From: Salinibacter grassmerensis | GTDB lineage: Bacteria; Bacteroidota; Rhodothermia; Rhodothermales; Salinibacteraceae | Assembly: GCF_947077765.1 (NCBI RefSeq) | Contig: NZ_CAMTTF010000004.1 | Span: 62,001 to 126,000, forward strand | Reading direction: 5' to 3' | DNA length: 64,000 bases | Shown here: piece after piece, positions 1 through 60,774 of the stretch | Layout: each line of letters begins with the position of its first letter | Numbering within the stretch: position 1 is the first letter of the stretch | The notes under the pieces: model-generated | Seen by the model: the letters and a program-made list of their open reading frames with translations, nothing else | Databases searched by the model: none | Told to the model about the DNA's origin: nothing | Position numbers and translations under genes: made by a program

Positions 1-2808
1 ACGGTCCCAAACGTCCGCCGCCCCCTACGCTACCGCGTGGCGGCCTCGCCGGTCCGCACAGAGTGGTACACGGTGGAGGTGGCCCAGCGTCCCATCGTGC
101 GACGGCTGCGACTCCACGTGCGCCCGCCCGATTACACCAACCGCCCCGCCCGGGAGCTTGCCCCCAACGTGGGCACCGTGACGGCCCTCCCCGGCACAGA
201 GGTTACGGTATCCGCGGCCCTCGGCGGGGCTGCGGTCACGGACGCAACGCTTCACTTTGAGAATGGCCCCGCTCAGTCACTTACGGTCGCTGACGACTCG
301 GCCACTGGTCGCTTTCGCCTTCGCCGCGAGGACACCTACGCCCTCCACCTGGAGAGTGCAGACGGCATCTCGAACCGCGATCCGATCCGCTACGAGGTCG
401 ATCTTCAGACCGACGCCCGGCCGTCGGTCTCCTTCCTCGAGCCCGGCCACCCCGCCGAGTTGTCGCCGGATCTCACACAGCCGCTTCGGCTCCAGCTCAG
501 CGACGACTACGGGTTCCGGCGGGCGGCCCTGTTCTACCGTCGCACCGGCGGGGCAAATGCGGACTCGTCGTTCGCCTCCATCGACCTTTCCCTGCCCGAT
601 GCTCAGGCCACGGACCAGGTTCTCTCCCACACATGGCTCCTCGCTCAGGAGAGTGGCCTCAGCCTGGAGCGCGGGGACGAGGTCGTCTACTACGTCAAGG
701 CCTGGGACAACGACACCGTGAACGGCCCCAAAGGCGGCCGCACCGCCACCCAGCGGCTCCGCTTCCCCTCTCTTTCTGAACAGTACGAGGAGCTCGACAC
801 CCTGCAGCGGGAGACCGGCGAGCAGATGCAAGAGCTCGACCGGCGGTCGAAAGACGTGCAGCAACAGTTTCAGGATCTTCGCCGGGAGGTTCGCCGCACG
901 CGAGAGGCGGACTGGGAGGACCAGCGCCAGATCGAGCGGCTGCAGCAGAAGCAAAAGTCGCTCTCCCAGAGCAAGTCGAGCCTCTCGCGCCAGGTGGATT
1001 CCCTGAACCGCGAGATGCAGCGCAAGGACCTGTCGAGCCCAGAGACCAGCAAGAAATTTCAGGAGCTGAAGCAAACCATCGACGAGATGGAGTCGAAGGA
1101 CCTGCAGAAGGCGCTCGAAAACATGCGCCGGTCGATGCAGGACCAGAGCTTCCGCCAGATGCAGTCGGCCATGGAGCAGGCCCAGTCCCGCCTCAGGCAG
1201 CAAGAGCAACAGCTGGAGCGCACGCTCAACCTGTTTAAGCAACTGAAGGCACGGCAGAAGATGGAGGAGCTGGGCCGACGGGCGGAGGACATTCGGAAGC
1301 GGGAGGACCAAGTTGCCCAGGAGACGTCCGAGCGCATGGATGCGCCCTCCGACGCGGACTCGACTGGCCAGTCTCAGGAAGGGCCGTCTTCGTCGGCCCC
1401 GCCGTCGTCCGACTCCACGACGGTGCCCTCCCCCTCCGACTCGTCCCGGGCCGATGCTTCCTCACCGAGCGCCTCGGACTCGACAGCCAGCGCGCCATCC
1501 GACTCGCTCGCCTCACAGCGGTCTCCGAAGGCCGACTCGTCGGCCAACCCAGACCTCGCGCGCGAGCAGGAGGAGTTGGCGAACGAGATGGAGAAGCTCA
1601 TGGAGGAAATGAAGAGCGCCGAGCAGGACATGGAGGGCGTCCCGTCGGCCCCGAAGAAGGACCTTCAGCAAATGCGAAAGCAGATGCAGAAGCAGGACAT
1701 GTCGGGGCAGATGCGACAGAATAGCAAACAGCTTCGGAAGAACCAGCTTCAGAAGGCCCGTCAGCAGCAGCGGCGGTTGCAGAAGCGCCTCCAGAGCATG
1801 CAGTCTCAGATGTCCCAGATGCAGCAGCAGATGAAGGGGCAGCAGCGCCAGATGAACATGACGGGTCTCCGTAGTACCCTGGAAAACACCCTTCGCCTGT
1901 CCACAGACCAAGAGGCCCTCCGCACGACCCTTGAGGAACTGGAGGGAGGCGGCTCCGCCGTTCGTCGATTCGCTGCCCAACAGAAGGGACTACAAGATGG
2001 CCTCAACCACGTCGCCGACTCGCTCCAGTCCATTGCGAACCGACTTCCACGAATGTCAAAGGCCGTTCAGGAGAAGACGGGCAACGCGTTGCGGGCGATG
2101 GGGGACGCGACCGCCGCACTGGACGCCCGTGAGGGGGGAAAGGCCACCGGCTACCAGAAGACCTCGATGATGCACCTGAACGAGTTGGCCCGCCTGCTCT
2201 CTGATCTGTTGGATCAGATGAAGCAGCAAAGCAGCGGCGGAAGCGGCAAGATGTCGATGCAGCAGGCCATGCAGCAGCTGCAACAGGCCTCCGGCCAGCA
2301 GCAGAAGCTCAATCAGCAGATCCAGAAGTTCCTCAGCAAGGCCCAGGGCAATCGTCTCTCAAAAGACATGCAGGCCCGGCGGAAGCAGCTCGCCAAGCAG
2401 CAGCGCCAGATCAAGCAGCAGCTCGACGAGATGAACATCGAGGAGGAGGCAAAGCAGAAGTTGATGGGCGACCTGCAGAAGATTGCCGACGAGATGGAGC
2501 AGTCCGCCGACGATTTGCAGGGCGGCCGCCACAGCCGAGACCTCATTAACCGCCAGCAGCAAATTCTCAGCCGTCTTCTCAACGCCCAGCAGTCGCTCCG
2601 CACACAGGGCAAGAAACAGCAGCGGCGGGGGCGCCAGGCGGACGACGTTGATCGACAGCCTCCCGGCGACCGTCCTGACTCGGAGGACACCGACACACTC
2701 CGGCGCGACCTCATTCGCGCTCTGGAGATGGGGTACGACTCAGACTACGAGGCGCTCATCAAGAAGTACTTTGAGCTTCTTGAGCAAAGCGAGGGGACGC
2801 GAGACTAG
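1..2808 (+). CDS. DUF4175-like coiled-coil protein, 5' partial
   Basis: The reading frame is open from base 1, so the start (and probably the N-terminal membrane segments usual in this family) lies upstream; about 935 residues are visible. The first ~240 residues look like beta-sandwich domains (xRYRV, PPDYTNRP and later ADGISN-type repeats). After SEQYEELDTLQ (about residue 258) the protein becomes a very long charged coiled coil rich in Gln, Met, Lys and Arg, interrupted near residues 450-515 by a Ser/Asp/Pro low-complexity linker. The C-terminus (MGYDSDYEALIKKYFELL) is a short globular or amphipathic tail. The layout matches the large Bacteroidota DUF4175 family, whose function is not known; a membrane-anchored envelope or scaffold role is inference. 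No gene follows on this strand before the tRNA array. Confidence 0.75.
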   Translation, partial: TVPNVRRPLRYRVAASPVRTEWYTVEVAQRPIVRRLRLHVRPPDYTNRPARELAPNVGTVTALPGTEVTVSAALGGAAVTDATLHFENGPAQSLTVADDSATGRFRLRREDTYALHLESADGISNRDPIRYEVDLQTDARPSVSFLEPGHPAELSPDLTQPLRLQLSDDYGFRRAALFYRRTGGANADSSFASIDLSLPDAQATDQVLSHTWLLAQESGLSLERGDEVVYYVKAWDNDTVNGPKGGRTATQRLRFPSLSEQYEELDTLQRETGEQMQELDRRSKDVQQQFQDLRREVRRTREADWEDQRQIERLQQKQKSLSQSKSSLSRQVDSLNREMQRKDLSSPETSKKFQELKQTIDEMESKDLQKALENMRRSMQDQSFRQMQSAMEQAQSRLRQQEQQLERTLNLFKQLKARQKMEELGRRAEDIRKREDQVAQETSERMDAPSDADSTGQSQEGPSSSAPPSSDSTTVPSPSDSSRADASSPSASDSTASAPSDSLASQRSPKADSSANPDLAREQEELANEMEKLMEEMKSAEQDMEGVPSAPKKDLQQMRKQMQKQDMSGQMRQNSKQLRKNQLQKARQQQRRLQKRLQSMQSQMSQMQQQMKGQQRQMNMTGLRSTLENTLRLSTDQEALRTTLEELEGGGSAVRRFAAQQKGLQDGLNHVADSLQSIANRLPRMSKAVQEKTGNALRAMGDATAALDAREGGKATGYQKTSMMHLNELARLLSDLLDQMKQQSSGGSGKMSMQQAMQQLQQASGQQQKLNQQIQKFLSKAQGNRLSKDMQARRKQLAKQQRQIKQQLDEMNIEEEAKQKLMGDLQKIADEMEQSADDLQGGRHSRDLINRQQQILSRLLNAQQSLRTQGKKQQRRGRQADDVDRQPPGDRPDSEDTDTLRRDLIRALEMGYDSDYEALIKKYFELLEQSEGTRD

Positions 2809-5399: not shown

Positions 5400-7460
5400 T
5401 CAAGAACCGGAGGCACCGCCGGTTCCGGAGGCGTGATCTTCCTCCGGCTCGCCTCCCTCTTCAATTACCTCGGCCTCGTCGGGCTCGTGCTCGTCCACTG
5501 ACCCATTCTCCTCAGACGCGACTTCGCCGTTGGTGCCGTTGGTCGTAGGCATGTGGCCGATCTCGTCGGTATCTCCGTTCACAAGGTTGAGGACGTCCTT
5601 GCCGGGCACTTCTTCCCGTTCGATGAGCATCTCGGCCAGCTGGTCGAAGGCCTCGCGGTGCTCGGTCAAGGTATCGACGGCCCGCTGGAAAGCATCTTCG
5701 GAGATGCGGCGGATTTCCTCGTCCACCTCTCGGGCCGTGTCGTCACTGTACTCGCGTCCCTTGGCAATCTCGTCGCCGAGGAACACATTTCCCTGATCTT
5801 CCCCCAGGGAGATGTGCTTGAACTGGTCCCCCATTCCCCAGTCGAGAACCATCTTTCGTGCCATCTTCCGCACCTGCTTGAGGTCGTTCTCGGCGCCACT
5901 CGTCGCGGTGTCGAAGATCAGCTCCTCCGCCGCACGGCCGCCCATGATGACGGCCAGGCGATCCAGGATGTAGTCGAGCCGATAGAGGTACTTGTCCTTT
6001 TCTGGCAGTTGCTGGGTCACTCCCATGGCCTTCCCCCGAGGCACAATGGTCACCTTGTGCACCGGGTCGGCGTTGGGGAGAACCGCCCCGACGATGGCGT
6101 GGCCAGCCTCGTGGTAGGCCAGGAGCCGCTTCTCCTCATCGTCCAGCACCATGCCGTCACGCTTGAGGCCCATCATGACCTTGTCTCGCGCTTCCTCAAT
6201 GTCGCTGTACCGAATGGACTCGTGCTCGTAGCGCCCGGCCAGGAGTGCCGCCTCGTTGAGTAGATTTTCGAGGTCTGCCCCACTGAATCCAGGCGTGCTG
6301 CGCGCGATCTCCTCAAGATCCACGTCGTCGTTCAGCGGCTTATTCCGGGCGTGGATCTTCAGAATCTCGTGGCGGGACTGCTTCGTGGGCAGGTCCACAG
6401 TGATCTGTCGGTCAAAGCGGCCGGGCCGCGTGAGGGCCGAGTCAAGAATGTCGGGCCGGTTTGTGGCCGCCATCACGATCACGCCTTCGTTCTCTTCGAA
6501 GCCGTCGAGCTCCGACAGCAACTGGTTGAGGGTCTGCTCCCGCTCGTCGTTGCCGCCCCCGAGGCCCGCCCCCCGCTTGCGGCCAATGGAGTCAAGCTCG
6601 TCGATGAAGATGATGGCCGGAGACGTTTCCTTTGCCTCGCTGAACATATCCCGGACGCGAGAGGCCCCAACGCCCACAAACATCTCCATGAAGTCGGATC
6701 CCGACACGCTGAAGAACGGGGCGTTCGCCTCACCGGCCACCGCCCGGGCAAGCAGTGTCTTGCCGGTTCCCGGCGGGCCTACCAAGAGGACCCCCTTCGG
6801 CACCTTGCCCCCGAGCCCCTCAAATCGCTTCGGGTTCTTCAAGAACTTGATGATCTCGCGGAGCTCCTCCTTCGCGCTGTCGGCACCGGCCACGTCGTCA
6901 AACGTGGTGTCCTCCTCGTCCTTATCGTAGAGCTCTGCCTTGCTCTGCCGGACCGAGAACAGCCCCTGGCCCTGTGACTGCATTCGACGGAGGAAGATGT
7001 ACCCCACTCCGAACAGGAGGAGAACGGGCAGGAGTCCCATGATGACCAGCCCCCATGGGAAGCTGCTCTCGGGCTTCGTCACCACGTTCACCCCTTGTGA
7101 CTCAAGTAGGTCCATGAGCTGCTCGTCCCCGAACGAAGGGAGGTAGGTCACAAAGTTTTGATACTCGACCGTATTTCCCTGTTCGGTACGGGTGGCCTGG
7201 GACTGCAGCTTGCCGTTGATGGCGTTGCCCTCCACCTCCACGCGCTCCACATTTTCCTGCTGCAGCTGCGTGCGGAACTCGCTGTAGCTAATGCGCTGGC
7301 CCCCCGACGCCCCCATGCCAAAGTAGGTGTATGCCCATAGGGCAAGCAGTGTCCCGGCAACGACCCAGACGATGAGGCGCCCACGGCTAGTTCCTGAGGG
7401 CCCTCCTCCGGGCAGCCCGGATCCGTTCTGATCGTTATTCTGAGAAGTTTGGTCAGCCAC
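5400..7460 (-). CDS. ftsH: ATP-dependent zinc metalloprotease FtsH
   Basis: FtsH is the membrane-anchored AAA+ protease that degrades misfolded membrane proteins and regulatory substrates. The 686-residue protein shows a first membrane span (about 28-47), a periplasmic domain, a second span (about 134-157), Walker A GPPGTGKT (228-235), Walker [10 protein letters not shown] (283-291), the second region of homology (ATNRPDILD) and the zinc site HEAGH (450-454). The C-terminal ~60 residues are an acidic Glu/Gly/Asp-rich tail, in keeping with a halophile. It is probably the first gene of a unit with msrB. Confidence 0.97.
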
Positions 7461-7748
7461 GTCGACTCAGTCAATTAGGAATGATCATCGAGGGCTCCCT
7501 GGCACGGGGACGTTGCCCAGAGCGCAAGGGTAGACCCAGAACATCAAGCGTCTCCTCATACACCCGTGGGTATGGATTGTGTCCCACCACAGGCCTGTAG
7601 GGAATGTTCTTTCATTCAGAGAATGTACGTTACACAGACGTTTCGGGGATGGGTCCGGAGATATCGGTTGCTTCTATTCCACGGTGAAGATTATTGTGTA
7701 AGCCCTTTCACCTCCTTCTCTTTTCGTTCACCGGTCCCATTTTCCCTC

Positions 7749-9728
<1,980 letters not shown>

Positions 9729-11341: not shown

Positions 11342-11971
11342 TCAGGAGGAGTCGGGAGAGGTGGTGGTGTCCTCGGACTCGCCCAGCCGGCGCGCCACGG
11401 CGAGCAGCTGCTCGATCTGATCGACATCTCTGTTGCGGACGAGCGGCAGAAGGGCCTCGGAGGCGCCCTCGAGCACGTTCAGGAGGTCGATGAGGTCGGC
11501 AAAGCGGTGGTGGAGCGCCTGTTCGGGCCCTGGATGGCCTTCGAGCGGCTCGCCGTCCTCGACCAGCAGATCGGTACACTCCTGGAGACGCGATCGGACG
11601 GGATGAATCTCCCGACGCTCACGTTCTTCGATGATGCATGCGGCAATCCGCCACACATCGGTCTCTGCCCGGTAGTAGTCCTTGCGCGAGCCCGGACGGT
11701 GCGTTTTGTCCGCAAGGTTCCAGTCCACGAGCGACCGGAGATTCATGTTGGCGCTGCCCCGGCTCACGTCCAGACACGCCATAACCTCGTCGGTGCTGAG
11801 GGGCCGCGCCGCGCAGTAGAGCAGCGCGTGAATCCTCGCCCTGGTGCGGTTGATCCCCCACGCCGACGCCATCTCCCCCCAAAGGGAGACAAATCGGTCG
11901 ACGGCGACTCGGGCCTTGGAGTCGCGGTGAAGGTCCAGGAGATCAAGCCCGGACGGCTCGGGGGATGACAT
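11342..11971 (-). CDS. GbsR/MarR-type winged-helix regulator
   Basis: This 209-residue protein has a winged-helix domain in its first ~110 residues (MASAWGINRTRARIHALLY, then LSTDEVMACLDVSRGSANMN, then DKTHRPGSRKDYYRAE). The spacing and the wing R.GSRKDYY match the GbsR family, whose founding member represses choline/glycine betaine uptake and synthesis genes. In a halophile an osmolyte role is attractive but is inference, as no betaine gene is adjacent. The C-terminal half is helical and probably dimerises. The frame can start at a GTG at 12019; the ATG at 11971 is preferred because it sits just before conserved sequence. Confidence 0.82.
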   Translation of the reverse strand: MSSPEPSGLDLLDLHRDSKARVAVDRFVSLWGEMASAWGINRTRARIHALLYCAARPLSTDEVMACLDVSRGSANMNLRSLVDWNLADKTHRPGSRKDYYRAETDVWRIAACIIEERERREIHPVRSRLQECTDLLVEDGEPLEGHPGPEQALHHRFADLIDLLNVLEGASEALLPLVRNRDVDQIEQLLAVARRLGESEDTTTSPDSS

Positions 11972-12181
11972 GGATGAGGCTGTGTTGTTGGCAGCCCGGT
12001 TTTCTGGGGGAATGCCCACCAGCGTGATGAAGCCAACTCCTAAATCCCTCCGAATTGTTTCTCTCAGGCGGGGCGGGTCTACACATCACGGTTCACGGTT
12101 CGTATGCTCATGTCCCATCACTGAGATGCGCTACACCTGCCGTCGCACTCACGAAGCACTTTTCCACATCATTCGAGGCCC

Positions 12182-13036
12182 ATGTCCGCCCCCGCCCCCC
12201 TCTCGCCCCCCATCGTCACCCTCACAACGGACTTCGGCACGGAAGATGCGTATGTGCCGTCGATGAAGGGGACGATGCTCTCCATCTGCTCGGACGCACG
12301 ACTCGTGGACGTGACCCACGAGATCAGCCCACAGGACGTCATGGAGGCGGCCTTCGTGCTGCAGTCGGCCCGCCCCTACTTTCCCGACGGCGCCGTGCAC
12401 CTGGTGGTGGTGGATCCAGGGGTGGGCACGGAGCGACGCGCCGTGGCCCTCCGCGCCGAGGGGCAGTGGTTTGTGGGCCCCGACAACGGCGTCTTTCCAC
12501 TCGTGCTGGATCAGGCGTCGCCAGACGCCATCGTAGAGCTCGACGATCCGACCTTTTGGCGGGACGAATCGCCAAGCACGACGTTTCACGGCCGCGATAT
12601 TTTCGCTCCCGCCGCGGCCCACCTCGCCGACGGCCGGTCCGTGGACGCCCTCGGGACGTCGATCGACACGCTCGAACCGCTCCGCTGGGCCCGTCCGTCG
12701 ACCGGTGCCCAAACGGTGCAGGGCTGGGTGGTGCATGTGGACCACTTCGGCAACTGCATCACGAACATCCGGCGCCCGGCGATGGCCGAGGCCGCCGGCC
12801 TAGAGGAGCGAAATCCACCGCTCGACGCCTTTCCGCCCCTCAAAACCTATGCGGGCAACACGACCCTGCAGGCCCTCCACCCGACGTACGGGGCCGTGCC
12901 AGAGGGCGACCCGCTCTTGCTTTTTGGAAGCACGGGCTACCTGGAGATCGCGGCCAATGGGGGGAACGGCGCCGAACTACTGGACATACGAAAGGGCGAT
13001 TCCATAAAAATTGTCTTCCAGGGGCCGTCTGAATAG
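12182..13036 (+). CDS. SAM hydroxide adenosyltransferase (DUF62 family)
   Basis: This 284-residue member of the chlorinase/fluorinase superfamily should hydrolyse S-adenosylmethionine to adenosine and methionine. The N-terminal TLTTDFGTEDAYV (13-25), VVVDPGVGTERR (75-86), VGPDNGVF (98-105) and TTFHGRDIFAPAAAHLA (133-149) are all family signatures. The Asp-Arg-His set typical of the hydroxide-using branch is present (D78, R85/R86, H136), which argues against a halogenase. The C-terminal domain ends near residue 284. It is divergent from the GbsR-type regulator, sharing a 210-base upstream region. Confidence 0.92.
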   Translation: MSAPAPLSPPIVTLTTDFGTEDAYVPSMKGTMLSICSDARLVDVTHEISPQDVMEAAFVLQSARPYFPDGAVHLVVVDPGVGTERRAVALRAEGQWFVGPDNGVFPLVLDQASPDAIVELDDPTFWRDESPSTTFHGRDIFAPAAAHLADGRSVDALGTSIDTLEPLRWARPSTGAQTVQGWVVHVDHFGNCITNIRRPAMAEAAGLEERNPPLDAFPPLKTYAGNTTLQALHPTYGAVPEGDPLLLFGSTGYLEIAANGGNGAELLDIRKGDSIKIVFQGPSE

Positions 13037-13081
13037 TCCTGGTCTTCGGTTGCGTCCTCTACGCCCCAGGTACTTTTTCCC

Positions 13082-14356
13082 ATGGCGCTCGCGTCTACGT
13101 CCCCCGACCCACCCTCTCCCCTGAAGAACCTGGAGGCCCTCTACCCACTCGCCTGCACGCTGGTGGGCGACGAGGCCGCTCCGTCCCTTCTCGTCCGGGT
13201 TTACGAACGGGTGGCCGACGCGCCACCGGACGAACGCCCCGATACCCCGGAGGACTGGCTCGCTCTGCTCCTTCGGGAGGCCCCAGAACAGGGCCAGCCC
13301 CCCGGCGGCCCGGAAGCATCCAACCCCTCGGCCACTCCGGATGCGGGGTCACTTCGACGCGACACCGCAGAGCGCCTCGCCCGCAACACCATGCCTGTCG
13401 CGCTCGCAACGTGCTCGACTGCAGAGCGATTTGTTCTCGCCCTGAACGCGTCCCGACTGTCCGAGGCGCCCCGATCCGCCCGGCTTCCCTTGCTTTTTGA
13501 CGCCCCCCTTCCTACCGACCCGTCCGCGTTGCTAAGAGAAAAACTACGGGCGGTGCTCTCGGCCCCCGAGGCCGACCTGATCGACGAGACCCTCTCCGAC
13601 GCGGAGCTGCAGGGAGCCCTGCGCAACGTGCTCCGGGATCACTTTGCCCCAGTGCCCAGCTCCCTCCGCGCTCGTCTCCGTGCCGTCCTGCGGTCGTCTT
13701 CCTCCGCGGCGGACGAGGAAGAGGAGGACGAGGATGCCCCCGGAGCGAACCCCTCTGCGGCGGTCGACACGTCGGGCCGTCTGCTCGGCCGGCTTCCATC
13801 GCGGCCGAAGCCCCGCACTCTACTGGTTGTCCTTTTGATGGGGGTCCTCGTCCTCGGTGGGGGACTCGGGGTGTCATACCTGACAGGGTCCTCGTCGGCC
13901 TCTTCCCCGATGCCCCCAACCCTCACGGCCTTTTCCGCGGGGCAGGCCGGGGCCGTGACGACCGAGCTCGCGACCACACAGCCGGCCGAGGCGGAGGCCT
14001 ACCTGGACTCAACGTGGGGCCGCCAGGTGCGCCTGCCCTCCATTGAAAACGCACAGCTGCAGGGCGTCGGGCAGCTCCGGGCGTCCGGCAACACCGAGAT
14101 TCCCGTCGTGCTGTACACGGACGACGATGATGCACGCATCGCTGCGTTCGTGTACAGCTACGCCCTCGTCGACCGGCTCGACGACACCGCGACCCTGGAC
14201 ACGCAGGTCCGATCTCAGCTGGCCCAGCGCAACCAGTTCGTCGCCGACGGGCAGACCGCCGGGCCCGGCCTCTTGTGGCGCGATCGGGCCAACATCTTCG
14301 TCGTCGTCTCGCCTACCCTCTCCTCCGACACGCTCCGGGCACGGGTACAGCCGTAG
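13082..14356 (+). CDS. Membrane protein with sigma-like N-region and anti-sigma-like C-region
   Basis: This 424-residue protein is not firmly assigned. The first ~220 residues are soluble and helical, with stretches like the ECF sigma region 2 entry (LYPLACTLVGDEAAPSLLVR, 20-39, and DTPEDWLALLLRE) and a second helical segment (CSTAERFVLALNASRLSEAP). An acidic linker (DEEEEDEDAPG) precedes a single membrane span (about 239-262, LLVVLLMGVLVLGGGLG). The extracytoplasmic part (LPSIENAQLQGVGQL ... EIPVVLYTDDDDARIAAFV ... FVVVSP) resembles the C-terminal domain of transmembrane anti-sigma factors. It starts 46 bases after the SAM hydrolase. A signalling role is inference; it could equally be a family of unknown function. 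Confidence 0.6.
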   Translation: MALASTSPDPPSPLKNLEALYPLACTLVGDEAAPSLLVRVYERVADAPPDERPDTPEDWLALLLREAPEQGQPPGGPEASNPSATPDAGSLRRDTAERLARNTMPVALATCSTAERFVLALNASRLSEAPRSARLPLLFDAPLPTDPSALLREKLRAVLSAPEADLIDETLSDAELQGALRNVLRDHFAPVPSSLRARLRAVLRSSSSAADEEEEDEDAPGANPSAAVDTSGRLLGRLPSRPKPRTLLVVLLMGVLVLGGGLGVSYLTGSSSASSPMPPTLTAFSAGQAGAVTTELATTQPAEAEAYLDSTWGRQVRLPSIENAQLQGVGQLRASGNTEIPVVLYTDDDDARIAAFVYSYALVDRLDDTATLDTQVRSQLAQRNQFVADGQTAGPGLLWRDRANIFVVVSPTLSSDTLRARVQP

Positions 14357-53474: not shown

Positions 53475-56400
53475 TCAAAACGAGGCGTTGAGCTGCACGC
53501 GCACCGTATGGATGGGGTCGGTCGTGGCGGGGGCGCGTCCATCGTAGTTCAGCGTGGCACGGAGGCGGTCCGTAAACGCGTACTGCCCCTGCAGCCCCCA
53601 GAGCAGCGAGGTGCCGGGCCCGCGTCCATCGGTCAGTTCGAACTGCGCCCGCCCGACGGCCGCCCCGTTGAGGTCGACGCGTGCCACCTCGGCGTTCGCC
53701 GTGAGCCGCAGGCGCCCCGCGCGGCGCCACGTCAGTTCGAGGGGCAGCGTGTACAGGTCGGCCCGTCGCCCCTTCGCCCGGTCCCGCTTGCGGGCGTATA
53801 CCCCCGCCAGGGTCACATCGAGCGTGCGACGGGGCTGGTACGAGACGCTGGGCCGAATTCGGAGCGTACGGATGTCGAAGCTGCGGGCCTTGTCGAAGGC
53901 CTCGCTCTCCACCCGATCACGTTCCGACGTGCCCGTCGCTCGGAGACGCCAGGACGAGGCCGGGCGGAGCTGCCCCTCGACCTCCCACCGGTTCAGGAAC
54001 TGCCGCTCGCCCCCCACGGCGCGCTCCGTGAGGCCCCGCACCTGCCGCCAGGAAACATCCAGGCCGTATCCCCGCTGCGCCCGAAACACTTCCAGGCGCT
54101 GCTCGAGCCGCAGTGACCCATCGGTCGTGCGCCCCGGCCGCCGGAATTCATCCGGATCCAGCCGGTAGAGGGCCGTGGGGCTGTCGGTCCGGCTCTGCTC
54201 ACGGACCTGAACGCGCGTTTCGGTGGTGATCCGGCGCAGCCCCTGTTTCCACCACGCGTCCCCGTCCGGCCACAGGCGCCGGGGCCGCAGCGCGAGGCGG
54301 GTGCGCAGCTGCAGATCAACGACGGATTCGAGCGTGTCGGACGGCACGAAGCGCTGCACGTACGTGCCCTCGTTGGGGGTCGTCTCCGGAACGAACTCGT
54401 CGATCTGCTGCACACCGTCGCCGTTCGCGTCGCGCCACATGTATTGGCCCCGTTCGGGCGACGTTTGGACGTATACCTCGCGCTGAATAGGGGTGCGCTC
54501 GGTCGCCGCGTCGTAGAACAATCGAGCATCGACCGCCCGATCCAGTGGCCGGGCGCGCCCGTCGAACCGCATGACGATCGACTCGGTCTCGCGCCGCTGC
54601 TCGGTGCGCCGGAAGACATCGGTCACGTCTCGGCGTCGCAGTCCGCCCCGCACCGACACCCGGTACGGCGCCTGGGGATCGAGGGCGAGCTCCGTCTGGG
54701 CCGTCCACGTCCGCGACGCGTCCCGAAACGATCCATCCACGACGCCCTGCTCGGTGCGGCGCTCCAGGCTGCCGGACGCCTCGACGGGCCCGTTGACGTA
54801 CGACACCCCGGGACGGACCTCTAGGAACCGAAACGACTCGGCCGTCAGGCTGTCCGTGGCGCGTGCCCGCTGGCGTCGGCGTTCCCGCCGCACGTTGAGC
54901 CGAGGCTCCAGGCGTCCCCCCCAGAGCGGCTGGCGCACCGTGGCCGCCTGTCGCCGCCAGGCGCCATCGATTTGCGCAGAACGGTCGGTGCTGGTGATGG
55001 AGACGGCCCGGAGTGAGAGACGAGGCCATCCGGGTTCTTCAACAGAGAGGGCCCCACGGCGCCGCCACGCCTCGTAGGCCGAGCCGACGGACAGCCGCCC
55101 GCCGCCCGCCTCCAGAGACGAATCGCTTCCCCAGTCGACGGTCACCTGTCCCTCGTCCACCGTCTCGTTGCCGCGATCTTGGAGGCGGCCCGGAAGCCCC
55201 GACCCGCCGCGCGAAAGATTCCACCGCCGTCCGTACTCGATGGGACGCGTCTGGTCGAACGTGACGAAGTTCTGCCCGCGCTCGCGCCGCCGAACCTGTC
55301 CCGACACCGTCCCGAGTTCCATGCTCCCCACTGTCATTGTCATCGGGTCGACCCGCACCCCCGCCGTGTACGCCCGCCCCCGATCATCATCCGCGTCACG
55401 CCCCGAAAATCGATTCTGATCATTCAGCGACCCGGCCCACTCCCCGAACACCTCAACGCCGGCCACCGGCTCGACCGATCCCGTCAGATCAACGAGGCGC
55501 TGACGGGTCGGGGCTGGAAGCGGCTGAACGGGGGCGTACGCCCCGCTCCCCGGCCCTGCGTACTCGTAGACGACCCCATTCGTCTCGGCCCCGGCGCGCT
55601 GGTAATCTCCTTCTCCGCTCCCCACCCGCGTGAAGCGGACCCGAAAGACCGGCGTATCCGGGGGCGGCGCGTCCTCCACAGCAGCGAAGATCGTATCCTG
55701 CGTCCCGTCGGGCGACGCGATCGGCTCGCGGCGGTAGTGGACGTAAGGCGCATCCGAATCGAACTCCACACGGCGCGCTCCGCTCCGGACCGCCGACTCG
55801 TCTCCGGCCCGCGCGAGGCGGAGCGAGTCCTGGCGGGACAGGTCGAAGGCCGTCTGAAAGTCGCGCCCGTCGGCCTGCCGGACAACCGTGGCCCCCACGT
55901 TGACCCGGGCGTCGCCATCGCTTCCCTGCCACACTCCCGCCGTCGCCCGCCCGCCGACCAGCGTCCGCGTGAACTGCGTCGTCGAGTACTGAAACTCGAC
56001 GGTAATGCGCCGATCGTCGGTGATGAGGCGGTCGGCAGTGAATGTGATCTCGGCCTGCGTGTAGTCGATCACGTAGTCCTCAGTCTGGCCGCGCGTGAGG
56101 CGCTCCCCGTCTAGGAAAACACGCTCCGATCCCGCCACGACGATGATGGCCTCCTCCCCGTTCGCCCCTCGAAGCCGGTACGGGCCCTGGACCCCGTCGG
56201 TCGGCTCAAGGTCTTGGGTACGAAACTGGCCCCGGCTCACCGCCCCGAAGGCCGTGGCCTCCCCCTCCGCCAGCCCGGCGGCCGCGCCCAGTCCGTCACT
56301 CTCGACCAAGACGCCCTGCACCTTCTGCGAAAACGAGCCGAACGTCCCGCCGTCGAGGTTCACGTCCACGTCGCCGAGACGGACCCGTCCCTGAGGAGCA

Positions 56401-57056
56401 TCCACCGACAGAAAGACACGGTCGAAGTCCTGCAGGCGCTGGGTCGTCCCCTCCGGCTGGATGGGTGTGTTCTCGTCGGTGAGTAGGGCCTGGACGAACA
56501 CGCTGTCGGCCACCTCGCCCTGCAGCTGCATACGGAGCCCCGACTCCACGCTCACGTCGCGCTGCGTGCCGCCCACCACGCCCCGCGAGATCGAGCCGCT
56601 CCGCTGGATGTCGACGCCGGCGAAGGGATTGAACCCGGTGGTGTCGGGCCGCTCCTCCTCCACGACCACCGTCGCCGAGTCGGCCGTGGCACTCGTGTCC
56701 GGGGCCCGGCGGCGATACACCTCCTCGAAGGCAAACGGGTACGTCCGGTAGCGGGCAAACAGCGTGTCGCGGGCCCCAAGGAGGTCGTCCCGACGCACCC
56801 ACAAACGCCCCGTCCGCGCCTCGATCCGGTACTCGGACGTGTCGAGACGCGTGGGGCCGACCCGAACCGTCTCGCTTCCCGGAAGCACAAACCGGCGCAG
56901 TTGATACGGCTGCGGCTGAAAGGTGTCGATCGTATCCCGGTGACGCCCAAGGTCTTTCAGCACCTGTGTCGTGTCCTGTGCCGCCGCCTCTCCCAGGAGC
57001 AGCCCCCCCACGCCACACAGCAGCAGCACCCGAACAATCGACGGAGCGTACGACAC
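53475..57056 (-). CDS. Large SprA-like outer-membrane beta-barrel protein
   Basis: This 1193-residue protein has a signal peptide (about 1-26, ending GEAAAQ) and is otherwise almost wholly beta. An N-terminal section has RSGSISRGVVGGTQRD, then LQGEVADSVFVQALLTDENT, PIQPEGTTQRLQDFDRVFLS, wording close to the N-terminal part of SprA, the type IX secretion translocon. The rest is a long series of amphipathic strands; YMWRDANGDGVQQIDEF is a calcium-loop-like turn seen in related proteins. It ends VRVQLNASF, a good barrel signal. SprA is about twice as long. The start is a GTG. It lies at the end of a purD-NHL protein-SprA-like run. Confidence 0.75.
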   Translation of the reverse strand: MSYAPSIVRVLLLCGVGGLLLGEAAAQDTTQVLKDLGRHRDTIDTFQPQPYQLRRFVLPGSETVRVGPTRLDTSEYRIEARTGRLWVRRDDLLGARDTLFARYRTYPFAFEEVYRRRAPDTSATADSATVVVEEERPDTTGFNPFAGVDIQRSGSISRGVVGGTQRDVSVESGLRMQLQGEVADSVFVQALLTDENTPIQPEGTTQRLQDFDRVFLSVDAPQGRVRLGDVDVNLDGGTFGSFSQKVQGVLVESDGLGAAAGLAEGEATAFGAVSRGQFRTQDLEPTDGVQGPYRLRGANGEEAIIVVAGSERVFLDGERLTRGQTEDYVIDYTQAEITFTADRLITDDRRITVEFQYSTTQFTRTLVGGRATAGVWQGSDGDARVNVGATVVRQADGRDFQTAFDLSRQDSLRLARAGDESAVRSGARRVEFDSDAPYVHYRREPIASPDGTQDTIFAAVEDAPPPDTPVFRVRFTRVGSGEGDYQRAGAETNGVVYEYAGPGSGAYAPVQPLPAPTRQRLVDLTGSVEPVAGVEVFGEWAGSLNDQNRFSGRDADDDRGRAYTAGVRVDPMTMTVGSMELGTVSGQVRRRERGQNFVTFDQTRPIEYGRRWNLSRGGSGLPGRLQDRGNETVDEGQVTVDWGSDSSLEAGGGRLSVGSAYEAWRRRGALSVEEPGWPRLSLRAVSITSTDRSAQIDGAWRRQAATVRQPLWGGRLEPRLNVRRERRRQRARATDSLTAESFRFLEVRPGVSYVNGPVEASGSLERRTEQGVVDGSFRDASRTWTAQTELALDPQAPYRVSVRGGLRRRDVTDVFRRTEQRRETESIVMRFDGRARPLDRAVDARLFYDAATERTPIQREVYVQTSPERGQYMWRDANGDGVQQIDEFVPETTPNEGTYVQRFVPSDTLESVVDLQLRTRLALRPRRLWPDGDAWWKQGLRRITTETRVQVREQSRTDSPTALYRLDPDEFRRPGRTTDGSLRLEQRLEVFRAQRGYGLDVSWRQVRGLTERAVGGERQFLNRWEVEGQLRPASSWRLRATGTSERDRVESEAFDKARSFDIRTLRIRPSVSYQPRRTLDVTLAGVYARKRDRAKGRRADLYTLPLELTWRRAGRLRLTANAEVARVDLNGAAVGRAQFELTDGRGPGTSLLWGLQGQYAFTDRLRATLNYDGRAPATTDPIHTVRVQLNASF

Positions 57057-57139: not shown

Positions 57140-58063
57140 CTACCAGGCCGGGCGCCGAAGCAGCCGCGTTTCGGTGAGCAGATACACGCGGTCCTGGTAC
57201 GCAGCCACGTCGACGAGTGGCTCTCCGAGGTCGACCGTGTGCTCCGCGACGACGCCCTCCGATCGGTCCCACACGAGGACGCGGTGCGCGCAGACGATCC
57301 ACAGTCGGCCGCGGTGGACGGCAAGGGCCTGTATGTTCGCAGGGGCGAGCCCGGCGACGCGGCGGCGGAAGGTGCCAAAGGCATCGTAGATGAGCACCGC
57401 CTCGCGGCCGGCGTCGGCCACATAGAGGCGCCGATCCGGCCCTGGAGCCAAGGCCACCGGATTCTGGAGCCGCCCCCCTCGTCCAGACACGAGGGATTGC
57501 GACCGCCCACCATCACTCCACTTCCACACTCGGCGGTCGCGTGCATCGAGCACGAACACAGCCCCCTCGTCGTCCTGCACCACCCCAATCGGCCGCCCGT
57601 CGCCCTGGACCAGGGTGCCTCCCCGTCCGTCCTGAACGGTCCACTCCGGGCCCGCCCGCCCCTCGGTCCGCCCAACGGGCAGCGACTCGAGATACTGTCC
57701 CTCCATCGAGAACCGCTGGACGCGCCCGTTGTAGGTGTCGGCCACGAGAAGGACCTGCCCGTTCGTCGGATCTATGGCCGAGGGCGTGTCGAACTCGCCC
57801 GGCCGCGTGCCCGTCCCGCCCAGGACGTCTCGGCGGGTGCCGTCGGCCTCGAACATGGCCACCACGTCGCGCCCCGCATCGGCGACGTAGAGGCGGCCTC
57901 GCGGATCGACCGCGAGCGCTCGCGCCTCCTCGAATCGCGCGAGGACCGGTTCTGCCCCGCGGTCCGGCGCCTGCGCACACGCTGGACCGACGGTCCATAC
58001 GCCTCCGCACCCCCATAGCAGCAGGAGTCCAAGACCAGCACCTAGCAAATGGCGAGGACGCAT
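57140..58063 (-). CDS. Secreted NHL-repeat beta-propeller protein
   Basis: This 307-residue protein has an N-terminal export signal (GAGLGLLLLWGCGGVW; the Cys could be a weak lipobox) and then NHL-type propeller repeats: ARALAVDPRGRLYVADAGRD, VLLVADTYNGRVQRFS, GAVFVLDARDRRVWKW, LAPGPDRRLYVADAGREAVL. About six blades are expected. NHL propellers bind proteins or sugars; the ligand here is unknown. The gene is 83 bases upstream of the SprA-like barrel gene and 15 bases after purD, so a partner role at the outer membrane is plausible. Confidence 0.85.
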   Translation of the reverse strand: MRPRHLLGAGLGLLLLWGCGGVWTVGPACAQAPDRGAEPVLARFEEARALAVDPRGRLYVADAGRDVVAMFEADGTRRDVLGGTGTRPGEFDTPSAIDPTNGQVLLVADTYNGRVQRFSMEGQYLESLPVGRTEGRAGPEWTVQDGRGGTLVQGDGRPIGVVQDDEGAVFVLDARDRRVWKWSDGGRSQSLVSGRGGRLQNPVALAPGPDRRLYVADAGREAVLIYDAFGTFRRRVAGLAPANIQALAVHRGRLWIVCAHRVLVWDRSEGVVAEHTVDLGEPLVDVAAYQDRVYLLTETRLLRRPAW

Positions 58064-59475: not shown

Positions 59476-60774
59476 ATGCACACGCTCCTGTCTCGTTTTT
59501 CCCGCTGGTCATCCCGGATGCTCCGTCGCCGGAGTGGCGCCCGGCCCGTCCTCGCACTTCTCCTCGGCGGGATGATCGGGCTGGTGGCAGCCCCGGCGGC
59601 CGGCCAGGCGTTCCCGGGCGCCCCAGACGAGCCCGGTACCAACCTACGGGTGTACCCCCTCGCCACGTGGAGTCCACGGGTCGGCGTGGGCGCCGGGGCC
59701 GGACTCGTCGTGCACCACCTGGGGCGTCGGCACGCACAGGCCCTCCTTGCCGCGGCGCCCGCCCAGCACGAACAGGTGGCCACCGCGGCCTGGGCCAGTG
59801 CTAATCCCGACCGGGCCCGACAGTACGTGCTCGTGAGCGCACGGGGCCTCCATACAAACCGGGATTGGTTCTACGGACTCGGGCCCGGGTCGTCGTCCGA
59901 CGCCCGGCAGCCCATTGAACGCTCTGCCGTGCAGGTCCGCGTTCGGGCCGGCCAGTACTTTCTCGACCGGCGACTGCTCCTCCAGCCCCACGTTGGCCTC
60001 TCGACACACCGGGTCGATCGCGTCCTGTCCCCTGCGGACCCGCGCCTGGACGAGGCGTCCCGGCAGCACCTCCGGCAACTGGCGAGCAGCCGCATCGGCC
60101 CGTTGTCCCCGAGCCATACCGGCCTGCGTGTGGGGGTCGACGTGCGGTACGACACCCGTTCCCCCCGTCCTCGGCCTACACGCGGCGTGCTCCTGAACGG
60201 CGGCTGGGAGCGGTACGGGTCGCTCTCGTCCTCCTTTGTGCAGTACGATCGCCTGGACCTCAGCGCCCGGGGATTGGTGCCCCTGGGCGGCGCACATCAC
60301 CTGGCGGGACAGCTGTCGCTGGCCCACACCGTGGTGCGGGGCGAAGCCTCCGTTCCCTACTACCTGCGCCCGATGCTCGACGGCACCCGGGTCCCCGGAC
60401 TGGCCCGGCACCGCTTCGTTGGCTCCGACCGCCTGATCGGCAGCGTGCTGTACCGCTTTCCCCTTGTCCAGCCCCTGGGTGTGGTTCGTCTCGGCGGCCA
60501 CGTGGGCCTTCACGCCGCGAGCGTGTACGACGACGTGTTTTCCGACGCGGCCCTCGACGTTGCATTTGACGACGCCGCGGCCGTAAGCGACACGTCCGTT
60601 CCCCTACGGCCGGCCGCGTCCATCGGGCTCCGGATGGGGCTCTCCTTCCGCGAGGTGCCCTCCCTCGACCTTGCGCTCGGCATCAGTCCGGAGGGAGTGA
60701 CGGGCGTCCGGTTTGCCCTGCAGCAGGACCTACAGGCCCTGCGTCCGCCTCTCCACCAGCTGCGTCAGCCATAA
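59476..60774 (+). CDS. Omp85/surface-antigen-type beta-barrel protein without POTRA
   Basis: This 432-residue protein has a signal peptide (about 18-43, ending PAAGQ) followed directly by a barrel resembling the C-terminal half of Omp85/D15 proteins: WSPRVGVGAGAGLVVHH, GLRVGVDVRYDTRSPRPRPT (as in 'DTRD...P..G'), LLNGGWERYGS and a late RFVGSDRLIGSVLYRF, then ASIGLRMGLSFREVP. No POTRA region is present, so it is a short member and probably an outer-membrane channel or exporter rather than an assembly factor. Its stop is 49 bases from the next gene start; it begins the plus-strand envelope cluster. Confidence 0.78.
   Translation: MHTLLSRFSRWSSRMLRRRSGARPVLALLLGGMIGLVAAPAAGQAFPGAPDEPGTNLRVYPLATWSPRVGVGAGAGLVVHHLGRRHAQALLAAAPAQHEQVATAAWASANPDRARQYVLVSARGLHTNRDWFYGLGPGSSSDARQPIERSAVQVRVRAGQYFLDRRLLLQPHVGLSTHRVDRVLSPADPRLDEASRQHLRQLASSRIGPLSPSHTGLRVGVDVRYDTRSPRPRPTRGVLLNGGWERYGSLSSSFVQYDRLDLSARGLVPLGGAHHLAGQLSLAHTVVRGEASVPYYLRPMLDGTRVPGLARHRFVGSDRLIGSVLYRFPLVQPLGVVRLGGHVGLHAASVYDDVFSDAALDVAFDDAAAVSDTSVPLRPAASIGLRMGLSFREVPSLDLALGISPEGVTGVRFALQQDLQALRPPLHQLRQP

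Follow-up and report, generated by a model that had tools for sequence, protein, structure and literature searches.

SprA (Sov), the translocon of the type IX secretion system (T9SS; TIGR04189, PF14349; structures 6h3i, 8gl6 and 8gl8), is a giant single-chain outer membrane barrel, described in excerpts of two reports as a 36-strand channel found only in the Fibrobacterota–Chlorobiota–Bacteroidota (FCB) superphylum (PMC10994853, PMC12611786). SlpA/OmpM of Deinococcus (8ae1, 7zgx) are likewise very large single-chain barrels; an excerpt of PMC9388160 gives 30 strands for SlpA and mentions three 38-stranded D. radiodurans barrels predicted by AlphaFold. We analysed a 64,000-nucleotide stretch of the Salinibacter grassmerensis genome (contig NZ_CAMTTF010000004.1, positions 62,001–126,000; hereafter the window) and identified on its minus strand a gene for a protein of comparable predicted architecture, a 1193-aa open reading frame with a GTG start at window positions 53475–57056. 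The protein shares with SprA a homologous module and the strands that follow it. It differs in length (SprA of the same genome has 2614 aa), in lacking the SprA_N domain and in belonging to a family that, unlike SprA, is kept in genomes without T9SS. With a probability of roughly one in two, we read it as a T9SS-independent, SprA-related giant gated pore that exports a large substrate.

A predicted barrel of the SprA size class

AlphaFold2 modelled the window protein from 76 sequences with a mean predicted local distance difference test score (pLDDT) of 87.3 and a predicted template modelling score (pTM) of 0.77. An ortholog from Pontibacter lucknowensis (27% identity) reached a mean pLDDT of 84.0 and a pTM of 0.72 with 65 sequences, mostly common to the first run. 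Both models, with strands counted by hand from printed DSSP output, consist of 8 strands followed by a module, then 2 strands, about 120 residues of insert and 29 further strands, in total 39 long strands. Because strands can close into an antiparallel barrel only in even numbers, we take 36–38 of the 39 to form the wall. A closed barrel of this size, comparable to SprA with its 36 strands, is a well-supported prediction, and its predicted pore is as wide as that of the largest known bacterial secretion channel. In the window protein, the opening 7–8 strands comprise residues 149–283 (56208–56612; same strand number in the ortholog), a second between-strand insert residues 397–517 (55506–55868), and the 29 successive strands residues 518–1192 (53481–55505), ending on F as the last residue. 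The sequence-only reading had proposed a half-size SprA-like outer membrane protein. This applies to the number of residues and not to the predicted barrel, which with 39 long strands in two models is no small one; that the protein is an outer membrane barrel is supported by both models and is likely.

Turn lengths and alignments to known folds agree with this prediction. Over the 29 strands, counted back from the C-terminus, the loops predicted to point outward have a mean length of 12.4 residues, against 5.1 for inward turns, in the window model (permutation p 0.013), and 11.9 and 4.9 residues in the ortholog model (p 0.007), an alternation of long and short turns that fits the requirement of a membrane barrel. 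Porin alignments cover both models from strand 1 through to the last residue and thus fit a closed barrel. Foldseek searches of PDB chains with the window model placed four SprA chains at ranks 1–4 (E 1.6e-12 to 1.1e-9), so that the suspected structural relationship to SprA was recovered. VIA aligned the ortholog model with SprA (6h3i) over 721 residues from the first to the last strand (Z 13.8, root-mean-square deviation (rmsd) 9.0), far longer than for any other chain among the matches listed.

The C-terminus is periplasmic in other such barrels. If this holds here, both inserts and a conserved D.N.DG loop (residues 865–898, 54363–54464) would lie on the outer side, the insert at residues 397–517 being placed by strand parity at the extracellular or pore-lumen side, and a small beta module ahead of strand 1 (residues 36–105, 56742–56951) would be periplasmic. 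The D.N.DG loop has the consensus Y.W.DxNGDGxxxxDEF in alignment A1; as motifs of this type are associated with calcium binding, it may be a putative calcium site. SdrD, the only solved-structure match of the family profile, covered 19–27 residues round this loop in two stretches and was dropped as a short motif; the single protein had no match by sequence among solved structures. The best-conserved loop of the family lies within the opening strands (residues 195–213, 56418–56474; consensus DENTPIQPEGNTQ) and has a mean modal-residue frequency of 0.74 in the family alignment, compared with 0.67 for the module between the strands and 0.35–0.41 for the main barrel. The N-terminus carries a putative signal peptide (residues 1–26, 56979–57056), recognised by eye as a hydrophobic run to AAAQ and modelled as a helix at residues 5–21, while residues 110–144 ahead of the barrel were modelled at low confidence.

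Local homology to SprA

Accepted sequence similarity to SprA is confined to residues 288–398 (55863–56195), which comprise a module of the form GSE.V.LDG...DY.IDY..GEITFT and two strands. This segment matched the SprA profile with an hhalign E of 1.8e-8 over 97 columns and is 29% identical to SprA of the same genome; a larger alignment gave an E of 8.8e-8, and controls in which the profile was reversed scored 0.12 and 0.37. TIGR04189 (SprA), the sole meaningful NCBIfam match of the protein, aligned to residues 303–393 only (23.5 bits, E 6.9e-6, below the curated cut-off of 200) and matched 10 of 24 family members. A Pfam search with the protein yielded nothing above chance, and SprA_N (PF14349) had no match to it at E <= 1 or to any of the 24 members at E <= 0.01. 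We regard local homology to SprA at residues 288–398 as supported by these profile comparisons. The beta module occurs twice per protein (residues 45–112 versus 300–362, E 3.2e-9), and its N-terminal copy matched the SprA module with an E of 2.8e-4.

The kinship with SprA that had been claimed before thus stands for this segment, although not by way of the phrases then quoted as SprA-type. RGVVGGTQRD, LQGEVAD and IQPEGTTQRLQDFDRVF are present in the protein, but they are motifs of its own family, absent from all 21 SprA N-terminal halves, and were rejected as evidence for SprA. RG..G..[RQK][DN] occurs in 66 of 76 family members versus 0/21 SprA N-terminal halves and [ILVF].[PAE][EDQ]G.[TS][QK] in 46 of 76 versus 0/21; DY.IDY, the last of five patterns, is common to both groups (70/76 and 16/21). 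Two further candidate similarities were not accepted: the N-terminal strands (residues 140–300) against SprA residues 225–420, a weak match between hand-chosen slices (E 0.0011, probability 20%), and the C-terminal barrel against the C-terminal part of SprA (best E 0.004 with alignment A1 and 0.0097 with A3; reversed control 0.12). Profile comparison hence gave no accepted similarity to SprA outside residues 288–398. Common ancestry of the whole barrel with SprA is not shown by these data, and whether the barrel is an ancestor-like form of SprA, as had been suggested, cannot be told, neither family being rooted here.

Distribution of the family

A single-protein search (E <= 1e-3) matched 177 of 296 phylum genomes in 108 of 139 genera, mostly near full length; two of the 177 matches (G220, G287) were weak at about 1e-4. 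Given this conservation, the reading frame noted from the letters alone is real and not a chance one. Family members are mostly 1140–1270 aa long (1140–1327 aa for 47 full-length rows; one further frame has 1536 aa and an uncertain start) and derive from Rhodothermota, Balneolota, Ignavibacteriota (Ignavibacteria), Kryptonium, Chloroherpetonaceae, Thermochlorobacter, KSB1, LCP-89, Calditrichaeota and Bacteroidia, the family profile matching 246 of 295 genomes of the last. Cultured Pontibacter, Roseivirga and Gracilimonas carry the gene, which is single-copy. For 76 family proteins, a tree built by a quick method mostly tracks taxonomy and therefore points to vertical inheritance; neither the window protein nor the ortholog had a match among 72,556 plasmid records. 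No Pfam or NCBIfam model names the family, and searches of the open-licence literature for SprA-like proteins, 36/38-strand barrels, NHL proteins with barrels and large uncharacterised barrels returned no description of it.

Separability of the barrel and the T9SS

The sequence-only reading had assumed a genome without other T9SS genes, as the window holds none. The host genome encodes SprA (SprA_N E 6.1e-85 in a 2614-aa frame), PorV-family proteins (best E 2.0e-100) and 21 T9SS C-terminal-domain matches, which overturns this assumption. A genome search for T9SS components accordingly succeeded for PorV and not for GldM, whose model TIGR03517 had no match in the host and was also silent in all control genomes. 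With SprA, PorV and 21 tail domains present and TIGR03517 silent, the T9SS motor of the host may be divergent.

Barrel and SprA are separable both ways in the family of genus g130. TIGR04189 exceeded its cut-off in 0/17 genomes of g130, where its sub-threshold matches coincide with the module common to both proteins (from model position 604), and the barrel profile matched 15 of the 17; 12 genomes have the gene as an intact single frame of 1163–1253 aa, three have it in broken form (G552, G553 and G562; 91, 72 and 83% complete) and two lack it. Conversely, G570, G571 and G572 of the same family contain SprA and no barrel. Genome comparison thus indicates that the barrel is not a T9SS part, because g130 has SprA in none of 17 genomes and an intact barrel in 12, and the earlier suggestion of a pore independent of T9SS is upheld. 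In G553 and G562 the barrel gene is spread over several frames with stops, and at their low completeness sequencing errors are possible.

SprA is lost in all 17 sampled g130 genomes (G269, G551–G566), the rest of the family otherwise having SprA. One of them, G269, has a single weak T9SS tail match; the counts for three genomes from sibling genera are 42, 52 and 121. The genus appears to have lost its T9SS recently, a loss useful for finding genes lost alongside.

In the phylum sample, 176 of the 177 barrel genomes contain SprA, 52 of 228 SprA genomes lack the barrel, and 67 genomes have neither. This co-occurrence was set aside as functional evidence, as the absences are phylogenetically clumped: 19 of the 20 SprA-negative genomes listed belong to one family (f23). 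Within the Bacteroidia, SprA_N is present in 284 of 295 genomes, and two of the 11 SprA-less genomes, G455 and G474 (56% and 70% complete), encode the barrel. G347 lacks both, yet has at least 150 T9SS tail matches (150 of 374 candidates scored), so an assembly gap explains its missing SprA and barrel.

Proposed role and alternative readings

In the proposed mechanism, the SprA-type module and the conserved loop near the N-terminus would face the exterior or the pore lumen and probably shut the idle pore, like the cap and Plug in SprA. Gating by these two elements is suggested because both are far more conserved than the wall. Only folded proteins or bulky polymers would require so wide a pore, and the gated conduit would most likely export a substrate of large size, either a protein or a surface polymer, without T9SS. 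In Rhodothermota and KSB1/LCP-89, an exported NHL-repeat propeller encoded just upstream would assist it. Gating and export are both inferred. The outward direction, the weakest step, is proposed by analogy with SprA, FimD and AlgE, exporters that figure among the nearest folds. It is a more doubtful proposition that the FCB superphylum possesses, in this family, a second giant channel for protein export, SprA-related, with its own cargo and with energising and gating parts yet to be recognised, conserved in most Bacteroidota apart from a few lineages. The family is real and in no part ordinary; its part in secretion is a putative one. It is present in most sampled Bacteroidota genomes and kept after SprA loss. 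A compact second family with a SprA-like strand number would make giant gated pores a general feature of this envelope and would offer T9SS research a simpler relative in which to ask what a 36-strand barrel is for.

Several observations weigh against a SprA-related export pore. The odd count of 39 means that at least one counted strand lies outside the barrel wall. Foldseek with the ortholog model placed SprA at ranks 3, 6, 12 and 13, behind Deinococcus SlpA, and TM-scores to SprA are just 0.20–0.28, low for both models. The top VIA Z belongs in both cases to the usher FimD (17.1 over 371 residues for the window model; 17.9 over 356 residues, rmsd 6.1, for the ortholog), and the best 50 VIA matches of the window model do not include SprA, an absence that excludes nothing. 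With SlpA above SprA and FimD at the top Z, part of the structural likeness is that of large barrels generally. Like FimD/PapC ushers, the protein has an insert domain that follows the opening strands of its barrel; the FimD match, by contrast, does not reach beyond roughly the initial two-thirds of the model (147..833), and no usher domain is among the Pfam matches of the window protein and 24 members. The SprA-shared segment is short, and weak matches of module type to phage tail models (DUF2460 in 3/24 members, TIGR02217 in 7/24) are a caution that modules of this kind may be widespread. The co-occurrence with SprA, taken alone, would suggest a role in T9SS. Finally, the analysis found neither a cargo nor a motor nor any gene linked to the barrel throughout the family, and most neighbourhoods of the barrel gene are unconserved.

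A wide passive porin or structural envelope protein in the manner of Deinococcus SlpA, and not a secretion channel, is an unlikely alternative, though SlpA is the ortholog's top Foldseek match (E 2.4e-8); large barrels of unknown function are, moreover, already predicted in Deinococcus according to the excerpted PMC9388160. SlpA is tethered by an S-layer homology (SLH) domain and a coiled coil, whereas the barrel protein has neither, Pfam reporting no such anchor and no SLH match for the window protein and 24 members. The conservation of loop and module beyond that of the wall suggests gating or binding, and an open hole of 36–38 strands would presumably be harmful, so that a plug must exist. 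We consider it improbable that the barrel is an importer or exporter energised by TonB/ExbBD. An ExbB-x-ExbD-ExbD operon adjoins the gene in 14 of 126 loci from two lineages, and the secretion of PopC via a TonB-dependent transporter, as reported in an excerpt of PMC6434023, provides a precedent, but the other 112 loci have no adjoining ExbBD, and neither the window protein nor any of the 24 members has a Pfam match to the TonB plug or receptor barrel models. Least probable is an accessory outer membrane T9SS component, overlooked because the screens applied to model organisms were of other kinds: the module common to SprA and barrel and the presence of SprA in 176/177 matching genomes favour it, yet it is largely refuted by g130, where SprA is missing 17 times out of 17 and the barrel intact in 12. 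Many SprA genomes have no barrel (52/228), and at least some of the 67 genomes that have neither come from a single lineage, which makes the correlation weak.

Genomic neighbourhood

The pairing seen from the letters, an NHL-repeat protein next to the barrel, was confirmed: a 307-aa NHL-repeat propeller protein (57140–58063, minus strand; Pfam NHL E 3.9e-14) is encoded directly upstream on the same strand. Across 123 non-redundant loci, the NHL profile matched the immediate same-strand upstream gene in 19, with a gap of at most 412 bases or a short overlap; no other NHL protein was found in about 1.49 Mb of barrel-locus flanks, and nine loci with less than 1.2 kb upstream (745 bases in Calditrichaeota) could not reveal one. 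The pairs occur in Rhodothermota, including the window, and, far off in the tree, in KSB1, LCP-89 and one related bacterium, so that the proposed co-occurrence holds for two separate lineages. As the NHL protein of the window is only 20–23% identical to those of KSB1/LCP-89, the pair is either old or was made twice. Based on this gene order, the propeller is a probable partner of the barrel in Rhodothermota and KSB1/LCP-89.

Beyond NHL and ExbBD, no conserved neighbourhood was found across the family. The ExbBD operon follows the barrel gene in Balneolaceae and precedes it in one Flavobacteriales metagenome-assembled genome; ExbB and two ExbD genes lie beside the barrel at 11385–13420 of locus L034 and 6230–8540 of locus L175. 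In the window, a convergent murA-like gene lies downstream of the barrel gene, and the NHL gene and a purD-like gene lie upstream on its strand (murA and purD named by reading the translations). Near this purD–NHL–barrel run, on the opposite strand, a gene at 59476–60774 (plus strand) encodes a 432-aa protein with weak similarity to the Omp85 superfamily (Pfam E 0.0005, below the cut-off).

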